Shown here piece after piece: positions 11,435 through 56,313 of a stretch of 64,000 nt of DNA. Source of the DNA: Dehalococcoidia bacterium (GTDB taxonomy: Bacteria > Chloroflexota > Dehalococcoidia > DSTF01 > JACRBR01); contig JAKFYB010000008.1 of assembly GCA_021731085.1 (NCBI GenBank), positions 62,001-126,000 on the forward strand. The letters are read 5' to 3'. A program made the position numbers and the translations under genes. Each line of letters opens with the position of its first letter. Positions within the stretch are counted from its first letter, which is position 1. The notes below the pieces were generated by a model. The model saw nothing but the letters and a program-made list of their open reading frames with translations, was not told where the DNA came from and ran no database searches.

Positions 11435-11710
11435 CTACATGCCGCCTGCAACGGCAGGCACGATGCTCACTTCATCACCAGGCTTGAGCGCCGTTTTGAT
11501 GTTATCGAGAAAGCGCACATCTTCGCCGTTCACGTAGATGTTCACGAAGCGCCGAATCTCGCCCTGCTCATCGACGATGCGCTCCTTGATGCCCGGAAAC
11601 TCCGTCTCAAGTTTGTCGACCGCCTCAGCAAGCGTTGCCGCCTCACTGTTCACGACATCAATGTCGTTCGTGAGCTTCCGCAGCGGCATAGGTATTCGTA
11701 TCGATGCCAT
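11435..11710 (-). CDS. MoaD/ThiS-family sulfur carrier with C-terminal GG-M
   Basis: 91 residues of ubiquitin-like beta-grasp fold. It begins at ATG 11710 behind an AGGGG ribosome site; a longer reading upstream lacks conserved sequence. The C-terminus DEVSIVPAVAGGM carries the Gly-Gly of sulfur-carrier proteins, followed by one extra Met. Carriers of this family are activated at the terminal Gly to a thiocarboxylate that donates sulfur to MoCo, thiamin, cysteine (CysO) or homocysteine (HcyS). The extra residue means a processing step would be needed, as for carriers trimmed by JAMM-type proteases. It is the third gene of a thrC / NIL-domain / MoaD run, pointing to sulfur amino acid synthesis rather than molybdopterin. 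No protease or E1-like activator lies in the window. Confidence 0.85.
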   Translation of the reverse strand: MASIRIPMPLRKLTNDIDVVNSEAATLAEAVDKLETEFPGIKERIVDEQGEIRRFVNIYVNGEDVRFLDNIKTALKPGDEVSIVPAVAGGM

Positions 11711-12107: not shown

Positions 12108-13364
12108 TCAGACTGCGGCAGCGGTCTCGCGCGCCTGCGTACGCTCGCCGAGCACCGCCTCGAACGAGGCCATCGTCGGCGCCACGTGCAGCGGCAGTTC
12201 GAGCGCGCTCTCAATCGCTTCCTGCGTCTTCAGGCCTCCGCCCGTGATGTACGCGACCGTCACTTCGTCCGGCGCGATCTTTCCGGCCAGCGCGAGCTTC
12301 CGCAGCCCCGAGATCACGACGCCGCCAGCCGTCTCAGCGAAGATGCCTTCGCTTTCGGCCAGCAGCTTGATTCCCTCAACGATCTCCTCGTCCTCGGACG
12401 CGACGCCATGCCCGCCGCTCTCCTCCATCACCTGCAGCGCGTAGTAGCCGTCGGCTGGATTGCCAATGGCGAGCGACTTCGCGATCGTATTCGGGCGGAC
12501 GGGCTTGATGTTGTGCGTGTGTCCTTCGAACGCCGTTACGATCGGCGAACAGCCGCGCGCCTGCGCTCCGGACATCTTTGTCTGGACGCTGTCGATCAGC
12601 CAGAGCTTCGACAGCTCCTGCAGGCCCTTCCAGATTTTCACGTACAGCGAGCCCGATGCCATCGGCGCGACGACGTGCTCGGGCGCGCGCCACCCGAGCT
12701 GCTCCGCCACTTCGTACGCCAGCGTCTTGCTGCCTTCCGCGTAGTACGGCCGCATGTTGATGTTGACGAACGCCCACTTGTACTTGTCCGCGAGTTCGCT
12801 GCAGAGGCGGTTCACGTCGTCGTAGTTCCCATCGACGGCGACGAGCGTCGCGCCGTACACGCTCGAGCCGATGATCTTGCCGCGCTCGAGGTCCGATGGA
12901 ATGAAGACGTACGCTTCGAGACCAGCGGACGCTGCGTGCGCCGAGACGCTGTTCGCGAGGTTCCCGGTCGATGCACAGGCCAGCGTCTCGAACCCGAATT
13001 CGCGCGCCTTCGTGGCGGCGACGGTGACGACGCGGTCCTTGAACGACCATGTAGGGTTCGCGCAGTCGTTCTTGATGTAGAGGTTCTTCAGGCCTAGGTG
13101 CTCGCCCAGGTTCTTCGCGCGAATCAGCGGCGTGAAGCCGGCATTGATATCGACGGCGTATGCCGGGTCGGCCGGCAACAGGTCGGCATAGCGCCAGACG
13201 GAGTTCGGGCCGCGCTCGATCGTCTCGCGCGTGATGTTCCGGTGCATCGCCTCATAGTCGTAGGCGACCTCCAGCGGGCCGAAACAAAACTCGCAGACGT
13301 GTAAGGGTTCAAGGCCGTATTCGCGGCCGCATTCACGGCAGCGCAGGGCTTTGGCGTAAGGCAT
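12108..13364 (-). CDS. thrC: Threonine synthase (PLP fold type II)
   Basis: 418 residues. The N-terminus has a zinc ribbon (CRECG ... CEFCF), as in one threonine synthase class. NPTWSFKDRVVTVAA holds the PLP-binding Lys and CASTGNLANSVSAHA is the phosphate-binding loop; AYITGGGLK lies near the end. ATG 13364 is preferred over the in-frame TTG at 13382 because the GGAGGT site (13375-13380) sits between them. The enzyme makes threonine from O-phosphohomoserine. The linked NIL and sulfur-carrier genes leave open a second possibility: sulfur addition to O-phosphohomoserine to give homocysteine. It is transcribed from a good promoter at 13552-13581 through a structured leader of about 180 bases. 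Confidence 0.9.
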   Translation of the reverse strand: MPYAKALRCRECGREYGLEPLHVCEFCFGPLEVAYDYEAMHRNITRETIERGPNSVWRYADLLPADPAYAVDINAGFTPLIRAKNLGEHLGLKNLYIKNDCANPTWSFKDRVVTVAATKAREFGFETLACASTGNLANSVSAHAASAGLEAYVFIPSDLERGKIIGSSVYGATLVAVDGNYDDVNRLCSELADKYKWAFVNINMRPYYAEGSKTLAYEVAEQLGWRAPEHVVAPMASGSLYVKIWKGLQELSKLWLIDSVQTKMSGAQARGCSPIVTAFEGHTHNIKPVRPNTIAKSLAIGNPADGYYALQVMEESGGHGVASEDEEIVEGIKLLAESEGIFAETAGGVVISGLRKLALAGKIAPDEVTVAYITGGGLKTQEAIESALELPLHVAPTMASFEAVLGERTQARETAAAV

Positions 13365-13387
13365 TGGTCGGCGTACCTCCAAAATGG

Positions 13388-13543
13388 GCCGCGCGAGGCG
13401 CGCGGCAGCAGGGGATGGCTCTATCCCAGGCGGGCGCCCCGGCTCTCCCGGGGCTGGAGCATCGCCATGCTGCGGAGGTTCATGCGCTTCCTGGTGAAGC
13501 CGACAAAGTCGGTCTTAATACATAATCCGCCCCACAGGCGGAT
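13388..13543 (-). promoter_or_regulatory. Hairpin-rich leader of the thrC operon (candidate attenuator or riboswitch)
   Basis: In transcript order the leader can form ATCCGCC/GGCGGAT (13525-13543), CCGAC/GTCGG (13500-13512), GCCCCGG/CCGGGGC (13436-13454, inside a 20-codon uORF), GGGAT/ATCCC (13412-13427) and a perfect 8-bp GCCGCGCG/CGCGCGGC with a 3-base loop (13388-13406). The last is followed by CCATTTT and then the thrC ribosome site. All five stems are perfect. The last resembles an intrinsic terminator, which suggests attenuation. No known riboswitch class was recognised. Confidence 0.55.
13421..13483 (-). CDS. Putative 20-residue upstream ORF (leader peptide) before thrC
   Basis: ATG at 13483 with an AGGA site 6-7 bases upstream, TAG at 13421. 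The peptide starts MNLRSMAML and ends PRESRGARLG. It has no Thr or Met run of the kind used in classical Thr attenuators. Its stop codon lies just before the last two hairpins, where a ribosome could influence their folding. Reality of translation is unproven. Confidence 0.3.
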   Translation of the reverse strand: MNLRSMAMLQPRESRGARLG

Positions 13544-13551
13544 CTGCGGGA

Positions 13552-13581
13552 AGGTTAGCAACGCACCCCTTCGGGTGTCAA
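13552..13581 (-). promoter_or_regulatory. Sigma-70-type promoter for the thrC operon
   Basis: On the minus strand TTGACA (13576-13581) is followed after 18 bases by TAACCT (13552-13557). This places the transcript start near 13545 and the whole hairpin series inside the leader. The -35 is perfect; the -10 is a 4/6 match. Confidence 0.5.
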
Positions 13582-13704: not shown

Positions 13705-16248
13705 ATGCGCCGCCTGCCCGCAATCACCGCCGGACTCATCGCGCTCGCAGCGCTCGTCGCCACCTTCACCGCGATCTCCATGCGCGTCGCCGAAGTCACA
13801 AACGCCGGCGAACCAGCCCCCGGCATCATCTTCCACATCGACTGCAACACGACGCTCGCCGGCATCCAGGATCAGTGCACGTACCCGACGGGTACGGTGC
13901 AGGTGGATGTTGACGTGGTCGTCGAGAACAACATAGGCGCAGCCTTCGATCTGGGAGCAGTCGGCTTTGAGTTGGTGAGCCTCGGTAATACGTTTTTCCG
14001 CCCGCTGTCTCCACCTTCATGCGATCCCGCGGGCAAGAACTGCAATCCGGACTTCAACGACACCGATATCAACGCACCCGATTGGGCGTGCAGTCCTCCC
14101 CCTCCGAGCGCTGACATCAACACAGACGGCAACCCGCAGACAGCTCAGGCATTCATAGGTTGCTTCAACGCGGGAATTCCGCCGTTCGTGAACGTGGCAC
14201 CCAGCTCGTTCTTGCGAATCGCGCGAACGAGGTATGCAGTTTCGTCCGACGTGACAGTTCCGCTGAGCTTGCGCGAGGTGAACATCTACGATCGGCACTT
14301 CGTTGAACTTGGTACATGCCCGACAATCATTGTTGCCGCAGACTGTCGGACAGCATCCGTGGTGATAGGCAGCGGCATCGCACCCACCCTCACGCCCACG
14401 CCGACATTCACCGTCACGCCAACGAACACACCCGGGCCGCAGACGACGCCGTCCGGCACGCCCACCGGCGCCGTTACCGACATCGTCGCCCTCAACCAGA
14501 GCGTCTGCATCGTTGCGAGCTCCATCTTCGCCGGAACCGCTCCGGTCGACGCCGCCCTCGGATGCCAGGGCGCGTCGTTCCAGCCGGACATCCAGAGCTT
14601 GATGGAATGTGTGCACCACCGACCGTTCTGCCCCGATGAGCCTCCACTCAACAAGGTCTTTCAACAAATCGACCCCGTCGACTTCGCCATCATCGACAGG
14701 GATCGCGATCAGTTCCACGCCGGGCAGGTCATGATGATCGCCGCCTTCGTAGACGGCGACTACCCCGTTCTGTTCGAGACTGAACAGGGCGTCCTGCTCA
14801 ATCACACCGGGTATCAGATGGGCCAGGAGGCCCTCTGCTACACGCCAAACCACGTCGACGCTAACCCCGGCGATCCCGACTGTGACGCGGATCCAACTAC
14901 CATCGGTGATGGAGTCGTGGTCGTGAAGATCTATATCGACGAGAGTGTCTCGCGCGGCACATTCGATGTGCGCGTCACCCAGGGGTTCGTCTCTCGCACG
15001 ATCCCGATCAACGTCGTTGGCCTTCCAACCACCATCGTCGTGGAGTCGCTTGACGACAAGACATCGATCGCCACCGGCGCGAAGCCGCGTACGATCGCCG
15101 GATTCACTCCGGACGTCGACGCCTGTGACTTCGCCGTCGATCCGCCCTTCTCAGGTGCCGAGTCTTCTCGAAAGACCAACCTGCTCATCAAGGTCCTCGA
15201 TGACGAGGGCGAAGAGGTTGTCGGTTCCCTGGTCGGCTGGACGCGCACCGGCAGCCGCTTCGACAGCGCGGCATTCGGCAGGACGGACATGCCTCATGGT
15301 GGCGCCGCCATCCCCCAGATCCCCATGCTCGATCTCGGCGCCCTGGGAGTGGGTTTCGTACAAACCATGTGCGGCGGCGCTACAGCCGGCACGATCAATG
15401 CCGTCCTGGTCTTCGACCCAGTCCTCGATTTCATGGCGCCACAGGACTACTCACTGCCGTACTCCATCGCATCGACCGGCACGCCTCCATCACCAACGCC
15501 GACGCCAACAGCCTGCGCAGACGACGCAGACTGCGACGGCGTGCCTGACAGCACCGACAACTGCGGCTACTACCCGCACAACGGGAACTTCTCCAACCTC
15601 ATAGGCCCCATCCCAAACCCCGATCAGGCCAACAACGATCGCAACTTCATCGACAACTCCCCGCCCTACGCGGCCGTCGCCGACGACCGCACCCGTGCCG
15701 ACTCCGACGTCTCCGGCGATGCGTGCGACACAGACGACGACAACGACGGACTCTTCGACATCGATGAAACCGGAGGCCCGCCCTGTCTCGCCGCCAGCGG
15801 CCCCACTGATCCTCTGAAGGATGACTCCGACAACGACCGCTTCCTCGACGCTGCTGAGTGCGCGATCAGCACCGACCCACTCGACCCGACTGACAAGCCG
15901 CCACTCACAGAATGCGGCCCACCCGGAGAGACCCTGTTTGCAATCCTCAGCGCGCGCACCGCGTTCTGCTACTTCGGTATCTACTTCAACTACCACTTCG
16001 CCAGTGTTGATTCAGATGCGGATGGCGATCTGCCAGCCGACGGCACCTACGATATCTGCGAGATCGCCTCCTTCAACGGCGACCGCCTCGTCAACGTCGC
16101 CGACACTGGCATGCTGGCTTTCGGCATCACCCGCGGGGTCACCCTCGCGAACATCGACCTCAACCGCGACGGCGTCCTCAACCCGGCCGACCAGGGAAGT
16201 CTGGCTGCAATTATTTCGTCGCGGGCCTGTCCTCTCCGGTTCAACTAG
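13705..16248 (+). CDS. Large secreted protein with Ca-binding TSP3-like repeats and C-terminal dockerin-like module
   Basis: 847 residues. The N-terminal hydrophobic segment (about 5-25) is a signal peptide or anchor. A beta-rich region with many Cys (about 30-220) ends in a Thr/Pro linker (TLTPTPTFTVTPTNTP). A second extracellular region follows to about 600, then Asp-rich repeats of thrombospondin type 3 style (DADCDGVPDSTDNC, DTDDDNDGLFDIDETGG). The last 55 residues contain two F-hand-like segments, FNGDRLVNVADTGMLAF and DLNRDGVLNPADQGSLAAI, matching the duplicated Ca-binding pattern of dockerins. A TATAAT at 13641-13646 may be its -10. The next gene, 56 bases on, encodes a cohesin-like surface protein, so the pair may bind each other. 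No enzyme domain is recognised. Confidence 0.75.
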   Translation: MRRLPAITAGLIALAALVATFTAISMRVAEVTNAGEPAPGIIFHIDCNTTLAGIQDQCTYPTGTVQVDVDVVVENNIGAAFDLGAVGFELVSLGNTFFRPLSPPSCDPAGKNCNPDFNDTDINAPDWACSPPPPSADINTDGNPQTAQAFIGCFNAGIPPFVNVAPSSFLRIARTRYAVSSDVTVPLSLREVNIYDRHFVELGTCPTIIVAADCRTASVVIGSGIAPTLTPTPTFTVTPTNTPGPQTTPSGTPTGAVTDIVALNQSVCIVASSIFAGTAPVDAALGCQGASFQPDIQSLMECVHHRPFCPDEPPLNKVFQQIDPVDFAIIDRDRDQFHAGQVMMIAAFVDGDYPVLFETEQGVLLNHTGYQMGQEALCYTPNHVDANPGDPDCDADPTTIGDGVVVVKIYIDESVSRGTFDVRVTQGFVSRTIPINVVGLPTTIVVESLDDKTSIATGAKPRTIAGFTPDVDACDFAVDPPFSGAESSRKTNLLIKVLDDEGEEVVGSLVGWTRTGSRFDSAAFGRTDMPHGGAAIPQIPMLDLGALGVGFVQTMCGGATAGTINAVLVFDPVLDFMAPQDYSLPYSIASTGTPPSPTPTPTACADDADCDGVPDSTDNCGYYPHNGNFSNLIGPIPNPDQANNDRNFIDNSPPYAAVADDRTRADSDVSGDACDTDDDNDGLFDIDETGGPPCLAASGPTDPLKDDSDNDRFLDAAECAISTDPLDPTDKPPLTECGPPGETLFAILSARTAFCYFGIYFNYHFASVDSDADGDLPADGTYDICEIASFNGDRLVNVADTGMLAFGITRGVTLANIDLNRDGVLNPADQGSLAAIISSRACPLRFN

Positions 16249-16304: not shown

Positions 16305-17654
16305 ATGCGATACGCTCGACCACTTCTGCTTGCAGGTTCATTGATCGCGCTCGTCGCGACGTTCGCCGTCATGCGCATGACCACGGCCGACGCGGGTGCG
16401 CTCGAACCGACCATCACGCTGGTCGCACCTGCGGATGACGTGCATGTGGGTGACGAGTTCATCGTCACCGCTTATGCCGAGCACTTCTCCGGTGTCGGCG
16501 CCTTCGAACTCGAGCTGCGTTTCGATGATGAGGCGGTCGCGTTCCTTTCCTTCGATGAGGGCGATGTGCTCGGGAGCACGGGGCGCACCGTGTACTGCAT
16601 CCCCGGCCCATCAACCAGCCAAGACGTCATGTTCGGTTGCGCGACCTCCGGCGCTGCACCGGGCGCCAGCGGCGAAGGCATCCTCGCGTGGTTCACGTTC
16701 ACCGCCCTTCAAGAGGGCAACACCGACATCCGCCTGCGCGATGCCGCGATCGCCGACGTGAACGGCGACCCGATCGACGTCGACACAGAAGGCACAACCG
16801 TCTACATCAGCGATGCGTCGGCCGGCGAAGAGACGGTCACACACACGCAGACCGTCGCTGCACAGCCGACCTCTGGCACGACATCAACCGTCGAGCCCGA
16901 CGAAACGGTGGAGGTCACCGAGACCGCAGCGCCGGATGACACAGAAACCGCCGTGCCCACGGAACAAGCCGCGACCAACACGCCCGTCCCGACGAGCACC
17001 GAGGCCGTGGCGACCGAGACACCCGTAGTGCCTGAGACACCGGACGCCGAAACGCCCACCGTCGCCGCCGAAACAGAGACACCCGAACCGGAAGAGACGG
17101 TCGATGTGACACAGACGCCCGAAGAAGGCGAGACCACCACGCCCGAGACGACGCAGACGGTCGAGACGGAGACAGAGACGCCGGCGGCCGAAGAGACGCC
17201 CACTCCCGAAGAGCGTGCTACGGAAACAGCCACACCGGATCTGACCAAGCCATCGGAGACGCCGGAGAGCACCGGCACGCCCGGCTTCGTCCCGCCGACC
17301 GCCACCCCCGGCCACCAAACGGCAACGACGACGTCCGTCGCAACATCAACGAACACGGTCGTCGTGAACAAGACGCACACACCGGCCGCATCGACCAGCA
17401 CGCCGGACACGGGCACGACGCCCGGAGCAACGTCATCGCCAGGCGTAGGCGCCACCGTCGCTGCAACGCAGACCGAAACCAACGAGGTGCTCGGGGTAAC
17501 CAACCCTGAGCCCGAAGGCATCGTGCTGCCCGTGACGGGCAGTGGCGGCGATGACGGATCCGGTGGCTCGCTCGGCTACGTTGGCATTCTGCTCGCGGCA
17601 GGCATGGCAGCGACGATGGCCGTGTCAGTAGCCGTCAGACGGCGCGCACAGTAG
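16305..17654 (+). CDS. Cohesin-like surface protein with LPxTG sorting signal
   Basis: 449 residues. A signal peptide (1-30) leads into a beta-sandwich of about 135 residues (36-171) with cohesin features: the DDVHVGDEFIVTAYAEHF start, a FELELRFDDEAVAF strand pair, and GILAWFTFTALQEG. A 230-residue Thr/Pro/Glu linker follows. The C-terminus has LPVTG (408-412), a Gly/Ser stretch, a hydrophobic segment (about 423-444) and RRRAQ: the three-part signal used by sortases to attach proteins to the cell wall. The dockerin-bearing gene lies 56 bases upstream on the same strand. The inferred role is a surface scaffold that holds its neighbour or other dockerin proteins. No sortase gene is in the window. 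Confidence 0.78.
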   Translation: MRYARPLLLAGSLIALVATFAVMRMTTADAGALEPTITLVAPADDVHVGDEFIVTAYAEHFSGVGAFELELRFDDEAVAFLSFDEGDVLGSTGRTVYCIPGPSTSQDVMFGCATSGAAPGASGEGILAWFTFTALQEGNTDIRLRDAAIADVNGDPIDVDTEGTTVYISDASAGEETVTHTQTVAAQPTSGTTSTVEPDETVEVTETAAPDDTETAVPTEQAATNTPVPTSTEAVATETPVVPETPDAETPTVAAETETPEPEETVDVTQTPEEGETTTPETTQTVETETETPAAEETPTPEERATETATPDLTKPSETPESTGTPGFVPPTATPGHQTATTTSVATSTNTVVVNKTHTPAASTSTPDTGTTPGATSSPGVGATVAATQTETNEVLGVTNPEPEGIVLPVTGSGGDDGSGGSLGYVGILLAAGMAATMAVSVAVRRRAQ

Positions 17655-56275: not shown

Positions 56276-56313
56276 TCAATCATATCCGATCGACTGCGTG
56301 ACGACAATCGCTA

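Follow-up and report, generated by a model that had tools for sequence, protein, structure and literature searches.

The window, a 64,000-nucleotide stretch of a Dehalococcoidia contig, contains a three-gene operon on the minus strand. The operon is headed by a thrC-like gene (12108–13364), followed by a gene for a NIL-domain protein (PF09383; 11761–12003) and a gene for a ThiS/SAMP1-like sulfur-carrier protein with the C-terminus GGM (11435–11710). This order is kept in 72 of the 77 related loci with enough downstream DNA (80 named loci were surveyed, three of which were too short downstream); the remaining loci have only the ThiS gene (4) or only the NIL gene (1). Two long secreted-looking proteins with proline/threonine-rich linkers are encoded divergently from the operon (13705–16248 and 16305–17654, plus strand). 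They may contain dockerin- and cohesin-like stretches, but Pfam gave no supported domain in either of them.

The window thrC-like protein scores 285 bits against TIGR00260, and a second ThrC copy in the same genome scores 313 bits. A full-length PF01053 enzyme was not found in the window genome, where the best match reaches 31.1 bits over one third of the model; the control searches were positive in 14 of 14 genomes. PF01053 is the usual homocysteine-forming family. Given the second ThrC and the negative search for a full-length PF01053 enzyme in the genome, the thrC-like gene probably encodes a MetM-like homocysteine synthase of methionine biosynthesis and not the threonine synthase implied by the name thrC in the preliminary description. 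According to PMC12172450, which cites Hasebe et al. 2024, MetM is a thrC-like homocysteine synthase of Streptomyces with a SAM riboswitch upstream; the same paper names metO, a sulfur-carrier gene. A NIL/ferredoxin protein is required for homocysteine synthesis in Desulfovibrio, as reported in PMC5764234. Therefore, the thrC-NIL-ThiS operon most likely serves homocysteine formation. We infer its assignment to the methionine pathway from the operon context, the lack of a full-length PF01053 match and the second ThrC, and the earlier suggestion of a tie to sulfur or aspartate-family metabolism agrees with this apparent methionine operon. The window operon resembles the MetM/MetO route, as cited in PMC12172450, in that the thrC-like enzyme adjoins a sulfur-carrier protein, and the SAM riboswitch of Streptomyces has a counterpart in the SAM-I elements before thrC in class relatives. 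The window operon differs in its extra NIL protein.

The leader of the operon is preceded by a candidate promoter on the minus strand, with a perfect −35 hexamer TTGACA (13576–13581) and, after an 18-nt spacer, the −10 hexamer TAACCT (13552–13557; 3/6). Transcription would start near 13545. A TTGACA-like hexamer, a spacer of 17 or 18 nt and TANNNT precede the upstream open reading frame (uORF) in 12 of 15 leaders from the order of the window genome (14 of 3,000 shuffles); no such arrangement is present in the order leaders L119, L125 and L023. The promoter had been called good, but its −10 hexamer is weak and it is missing from the list of a strict promoter scan. A 7-bp hairpin ATCCGCC...GGCGGAT (13525–13543) is present in six of six leaders of the window's family. 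It is positioned close to the presumed 5′ end. In some other leaders, L123 and L122 among them, the uORF begins only 8–9 nt past the −10 box, which leaves no room for a 5′ hairpin.

All five perfect stems attributed to the leader exist, at 13577–13564 (5 bp), 13543–13525 (the 7-bp 5′ hairpin), 13512–13500 (5 bp), 13454–13436 (7 bp) and 13406–13388 (8 bp) of the minus strand. However, the first is located between TTGACA and TAACCT, inside the promoter, and is therefore probably not in the mRNA. Three of the perfect stems observed have 6 bp or more and a loop of 3–8 nt, against a mean of 0.41 such stems in 300 dinucleotide shuffles, two of which had as many. Conservation in close relatives, the check proposed in the preliminary description, is found for stems 2 and 4 within the family, but not for stems 3 and 5. 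Stem 4, the P2 hairpin GCCCCGG...CCGGGGC (13436–13454), lies within the uORF. The 8-bp stem 5 (13388–13406) is located ahead of the ribosome site and is not conserved in sequence. The CCATTTT that follows it, singled out in the preliminary description, forms no proper terminator and lacks conservation among the family leaders. Stem 5 was rejected as a terminator for its lack of conservation and of a proper U-tract. A strict scan for a GC hairpin with a U-tract gave no intrinsic terminator before the window gene, and a looser one gave a single match, which is absent from the other five family leaders. Terminator-like hairpins follow the uORF in leaders of the families f2, f3 and f68 (L083, L030, L023, L122 and L220; 40 of 1,900 shuffles), and may add transcription control there.

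The uORF of the window leader (MNLRSMAMLQPRESRGARLG; 13421–13483, minus strand) is composed of 20 codons and a stop, and AGGAAG stands ahead of its start, as the preliminary description had recognized. The same description had seen no run of regulatory amino acids in the encoded peptide. On the contrary, Met-Ala-Met in this peptide corresponds to the stretch of the leader that is conserved best, the Met-x-Met motif ATGGCGATG (13460–13468, minus strand). The conserved core of the leader, which the preliminary description had overlooked, is a uORF with Met-Ala/Val/Thr-Met, encoded by AUGGYGAUG, and then a GC hairpin. We collected 144 upstream regions of thrC-like genes with at least 50% identity, 108 of which were left after duplicate removal. 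ATGGYGATG or ATGACGATG is found in 31 of these 108 regions, 76–196 nt before the gene, and a mirrored control pattern in 0 of 108; two extra matches that lie farther upstream (329 and 366 nt) were excluded. The motif is present in all 15 genomes of the order in which the start of the thrC-like gene was found, and the genomes G001, G007 and G016 (72–77% completeness) had no usable gene start.

In each of the 15 order leaders, the motif is positioned in an open frame started by ATG, which is expected for about 12% of leaders with shuffled flanks. When the frame is shifted by one or two, it is open with an ATG in 0 of 16 leaders (the 15 order leaders and L127, included because it has a start). 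The motif begins exactly five codons after the uORF start in 12 of the 15. The length of the uORF is 63 in all six f1 leaders and 81, 81, 81, 81 and 75 in five f4 leaders. The uORF lengths of the order leaders thus keep frame, while the gap from the uORF stop to the gene varies in all three phases. Codons 2–5, between the start and the motif, change amino acids freely, which indicates that the start, Met-x-Met and the frame are kept, and not the peptide. Each of the 16 uORFs compared has two or more internal Met codons; two are fixed at one place across four families, and no others are invariant. The proposal of a regulated leader with a leader peptide is consistent with these sequences: the leader is real and conserved, and the uORF is kept throughout the order leaders. 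The classical Thr attenuator had been set aside earlier, in agreement with the Met-x-Met codons conserved before an apparent methionine-biosynthesis operon.

The motif is complementary to the ribosome site of the thrC-like gene in most relatives, where it is also the anti-ribosome-site strand of a helix, P1. We paired the 14-nt motif with positions −18 to +6 of the gene in all 31 motif leaders. The mean energy is −12.85 kcal/mol, compared with −11.42 (sd 0.37) for permuted partners, none of 2,000 permutations being as low, and −8.39 kcal/mol for shuffled ribosome-site targets. Strong pairing is seen in f4, with as many as 13 contiguous pairs, in f2, in the group of L126, L128 and L129, and in several f1 leaders; 13 contiguous pairs are formed in L100 and L123. 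It is weaker in L127, and weak in the f5-type outgroups and in L132, L133 and L136. In L027, a change in the motif is matched by a change in the ribosome site. Alignment A1 contains 17 leaders, as L023 and L122 were dropped from 19 as too divergent to align. In A1, 87.9% of the cells are paired, a value not reached in 500 shuffles, and slid versions give at most 58.2%. Only two pairs are changed on both sides, a number reached in 98 of 500 shuffles. The reason is that the motif strand is almost constant, while changes in the ribosome-site strand stay within C/U and A/G exchanges. RNAalifold recovers five P1 pairs unaided.

The motif has the form ATGGCGATG in 13 of the 15 order leaders, and ATGGTGATG and ATGACGATG in one each, whereas the 10-mers before the thrC start codon have 14 different forms in the same leaders. 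A strand that stays nearly invariant against so many partner forms must be under a second constraint, of which the Met codons would be the simplest. In computed folds of 19 leaders, a ribosome placed at the Met codons leaves the ribosome site of the gene more accessible than one placed at the stop in 15 cases, and the order is opposite in L098, L121, L126 and L129.

In the window itself, the Shine-Dalgarno sequence and spacer of the thrC-like gene (GGAGGTACGCCGACCA; 13365–13380, minus strand) form with the motif a degenerate P1, whose 4+4+4 pairs are interrupted by a bulge and a gap; its energy is −12.1 kcal/mol and its summed pair probability is 0.1. The predicted fold pairs the Shine-Dalgarno GGAGGU with ACCUCC of uORF codons 2–4 (13474–13479, minus strand), which leaves the Shine-Dalgarno nucleotides with unpaired probabilities of 0.00–0.08. 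CCTCC occurs at this place of the uORF in four of six family leaders. The uORF ACCUCC is thus predicted to hide the Shine-Dalgarno sequence of the window in place of the P1 helix. Masking of a ribosome at Met-8 raises the computed openness of the Shine-Dalgarno sequence from about 0.03 to about 0.25, and masking at the stop codon to about 0.19. The mean openness of the window ribosome site is hardly changed by masking at the Met codons (0.56 to 0.57). Since masking at Met-8 and at the stop opens the Shine-Dalgarno sequence alike, the modeled switch appears poor in the window. The degenerate P1 would also suit a structural leader without sensing, in which the uORF and the pairing set a low fixed level of translation, by coupling or re-initiation, with no response to Met. 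The same anatomy is expected of such a leader, and several leaders have a weak Shine-Dalgarno sequence before the uORF. It would not, however, explain the two internal Met codons held at one place over four families, nor the control of the gene by SAM-I in class relatives, and we consider it unlikely.

We hypothesize that the leader is a Met-responsive leader-peptide attenuator, mainly translational, acting on a homocysteine-synthesis operon; judged from sequence, we give this reading an even chance. The uORF with its Met codons shares nucleotides with stretches that can mask the ribosome site of the gene, and thus the enzyme is probably made only when Met is short. The leader would be transcribed from its own promoter and encode a short uORF with Met-x-Met. 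The RNA of the uORF would pair with the thrC-like ribosome site, in most relatives through AUGGYGAU and the spacer from the Shine-Dalgarno sequence to the start, and in the window through the adjacent ACCUCC and the Shine-Dalgarno sequence instead. When Met is plentiful, the ribosome would finish the uORF quickly, the pairing would re-form, and the gene would be closed. When charged Met-tRNA is scarce, the ribosome would stall at the Met codons and cover the pairing strand, and the gene would be opened. From this arrangement, we infer that the uORF is translated and that ribosomes stall at its Met codons, as well as which way the control works and what the signal is.

Outside the order, 7 of 16 motif leaders lack an ATG in the 13 codons that precede the motif (L126, L128, L132, L133, L136, L114 and L142), and L128 has an early stop in the motif frame. 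When the outgroup leaders were searched more widely for pairing of the motif elsewhere, the set as a whole gave no significance (the shuffle fraction averages 0.29), L149 and L135 being suggestive. The motif is thus kept where the ribosome-site pairing is absent, as it would be if AUGGYGAUG were read by the exit tunnel as a nascent arrest peptide, or by a regulator protein, and not through Met-tRNA supply. Against such a reading, the residues flanking M-x-M are poorly conserved and the outgroup frames end at M-V-M-R or M-[AV]-M-P, too short for usual arrest peptides; we find it improbable. In the f5-type loci L114, L135, L138, L142, L143 and L149, as well as in L113, these frames are four codons long and are located between a SAM-I riboswitch and thrC, with TAG directly before the GC hairpin.

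Searches of every Rfam family at the gathering score and at E ≤ 5 gave no match on the leader strand except a chance snoRNA, and neither the SAM-I (RF00162) nor the T-box model matches the window leader. The best sub-threshold match is on the opposite strand (22.3 of 50 bits). The preliminary description had proposed an unclassified riboswitch, in which the RNA would bind SAM, Met, homocysteine or another ligand and close the ribosome site. Only 4 of 200 shuffles fold as well as the leader (z −2.47), AUGGYGAUG and the hairpin are conserved, and the place is otherwise occupied by SAM-I in class relatives. In addition, the third base of the middle motif codon is fixed as G, also in outgroup leaders, for which the Met-attenuator reading does not account. 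However, the leader has no family-wide conserved unpaired core, its hairpin loops and linkers vary freely across families, and the motif is the only strongly conserved non-helical part. The open reading frame is conserved, and together with the lack of an Rfam match this makes a riboswitch quite unlikely.

RF00162 (SAM-I) matches are found in 40 of 60 relatives. The sole SAM-I of the window genome precedes a cluster that we read as mtnA-mtnP-ahcY-metK. In Rfam scans of 37 loci, SAM-I is present in 21, always upstream of thrC and often in tandem with the motif; L073 and L111 have SAM-I and no motif. No SAM-I was found near the thrC-like gene in the order leaders scanned, in L158 or in L220. We labelled 44 proteins in a tree as motif only (16), both elements (17) or SAM-I only (11), some labels coming from RF00162 matches in relatives or from a sequence pattern. 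The labels need 6 changes on the tree, against a shuffled mean of 20.5. The order and L220 form a motif-only group with support of 84/60, which is not firm. This group adjoins a clade of leaders with both elements and one SAM-I-only leader, within a branch supported 98/87. The f5-type clade with both elements is separate, and the motif there is therefore likely, though not firmly, of common origin. It is possible, at somewhat short of an even chance, that a leader peptide that senses Met-tRNA and hides the ribosome site evolved in Dehalococcoidia, works in tandem with SAM-I in some families as the second of two independent end-product sensors, and replaced SAM-I in the order of the window genome.

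The leader element occupies a single genomic site. A covariance model built on it, R1, has a single strong match in each of 13 genomes of the order, out of 18. In 393 genomes of the class, R1 has 21 matches with E ≤ 1.4e-5, all of them before thrC-like genes. Among the best 30 loci, none of the matches weaker than that is before thrC, and the lower-ranked ones all have E ≥ 0.0156; no other targets of the element appear among the matches of these 30 loci. As the training sequences of R1 are among the 21, the new evidence consists of L217, L218, L219 and L220. In L220, an in-frame ATG and a terminator-like hairpin are present, and the ribosome site contains TTCGCCATCA, which complements the motif. 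The pattern ATG-N12-ATGGYGATGC was set aside as a genome-wide regulon marker. In genome G006, a second near-identical uORF start with the motif is found at a contig end (C131:28426–28450), apart from the thrC leader of that genome; the gene downstream of this copy is beyond the end of the assembly.

Amino-acid attenuators of the trpL type combine a short uORF that contains end-product codons with alternative hairpins and a biosynthetic operon downstream. The window leader resembles them in its end-product (Met) codons before an apparent Met-biosynthetic operon, and the f2, f3 and f68 leaders also in the terminator-like hairpin after the uORF. It differs in that the codons are those of Met, and in that the window's family and f4 conserve pairing with the ribosome site, not a terminator. 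Translational attenuators of the erm/cat type respond to an antibiotic, and the ribosome site of their gene is sequestered by the region of the uORF. Such sequestration is also predicted for the leader, and a ribosome on the uORF would free the site, but the proposed signal is Met-tRNA supply. In class relatives, SAM-I stands where this leader does, ahead of thrC, but it differs in giving no match at the window leader, its one copy in the window genome being before mtnA-mtnP-ahcY-metK. In the open-access literature, with subscription papers mostly outside its coverage, we found no description of a Met leader-peptide attenuator or of a SAM-riboswitch thrC in Chloroflexi. If the Met-attenuator reading is true, uncultivated Chloroflexota have a Met-specific attenuator, a leader-peptide device has taken the place of a riboswitch at a single gene throughout a clade, and a gene with a threonine synthase annotation is marked as a methionine gene. 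Elsewhere in the window, a ribosomal protein L10 leader (RF00557, 53.5 bits) is located at 56289–56128 of the minus strand.
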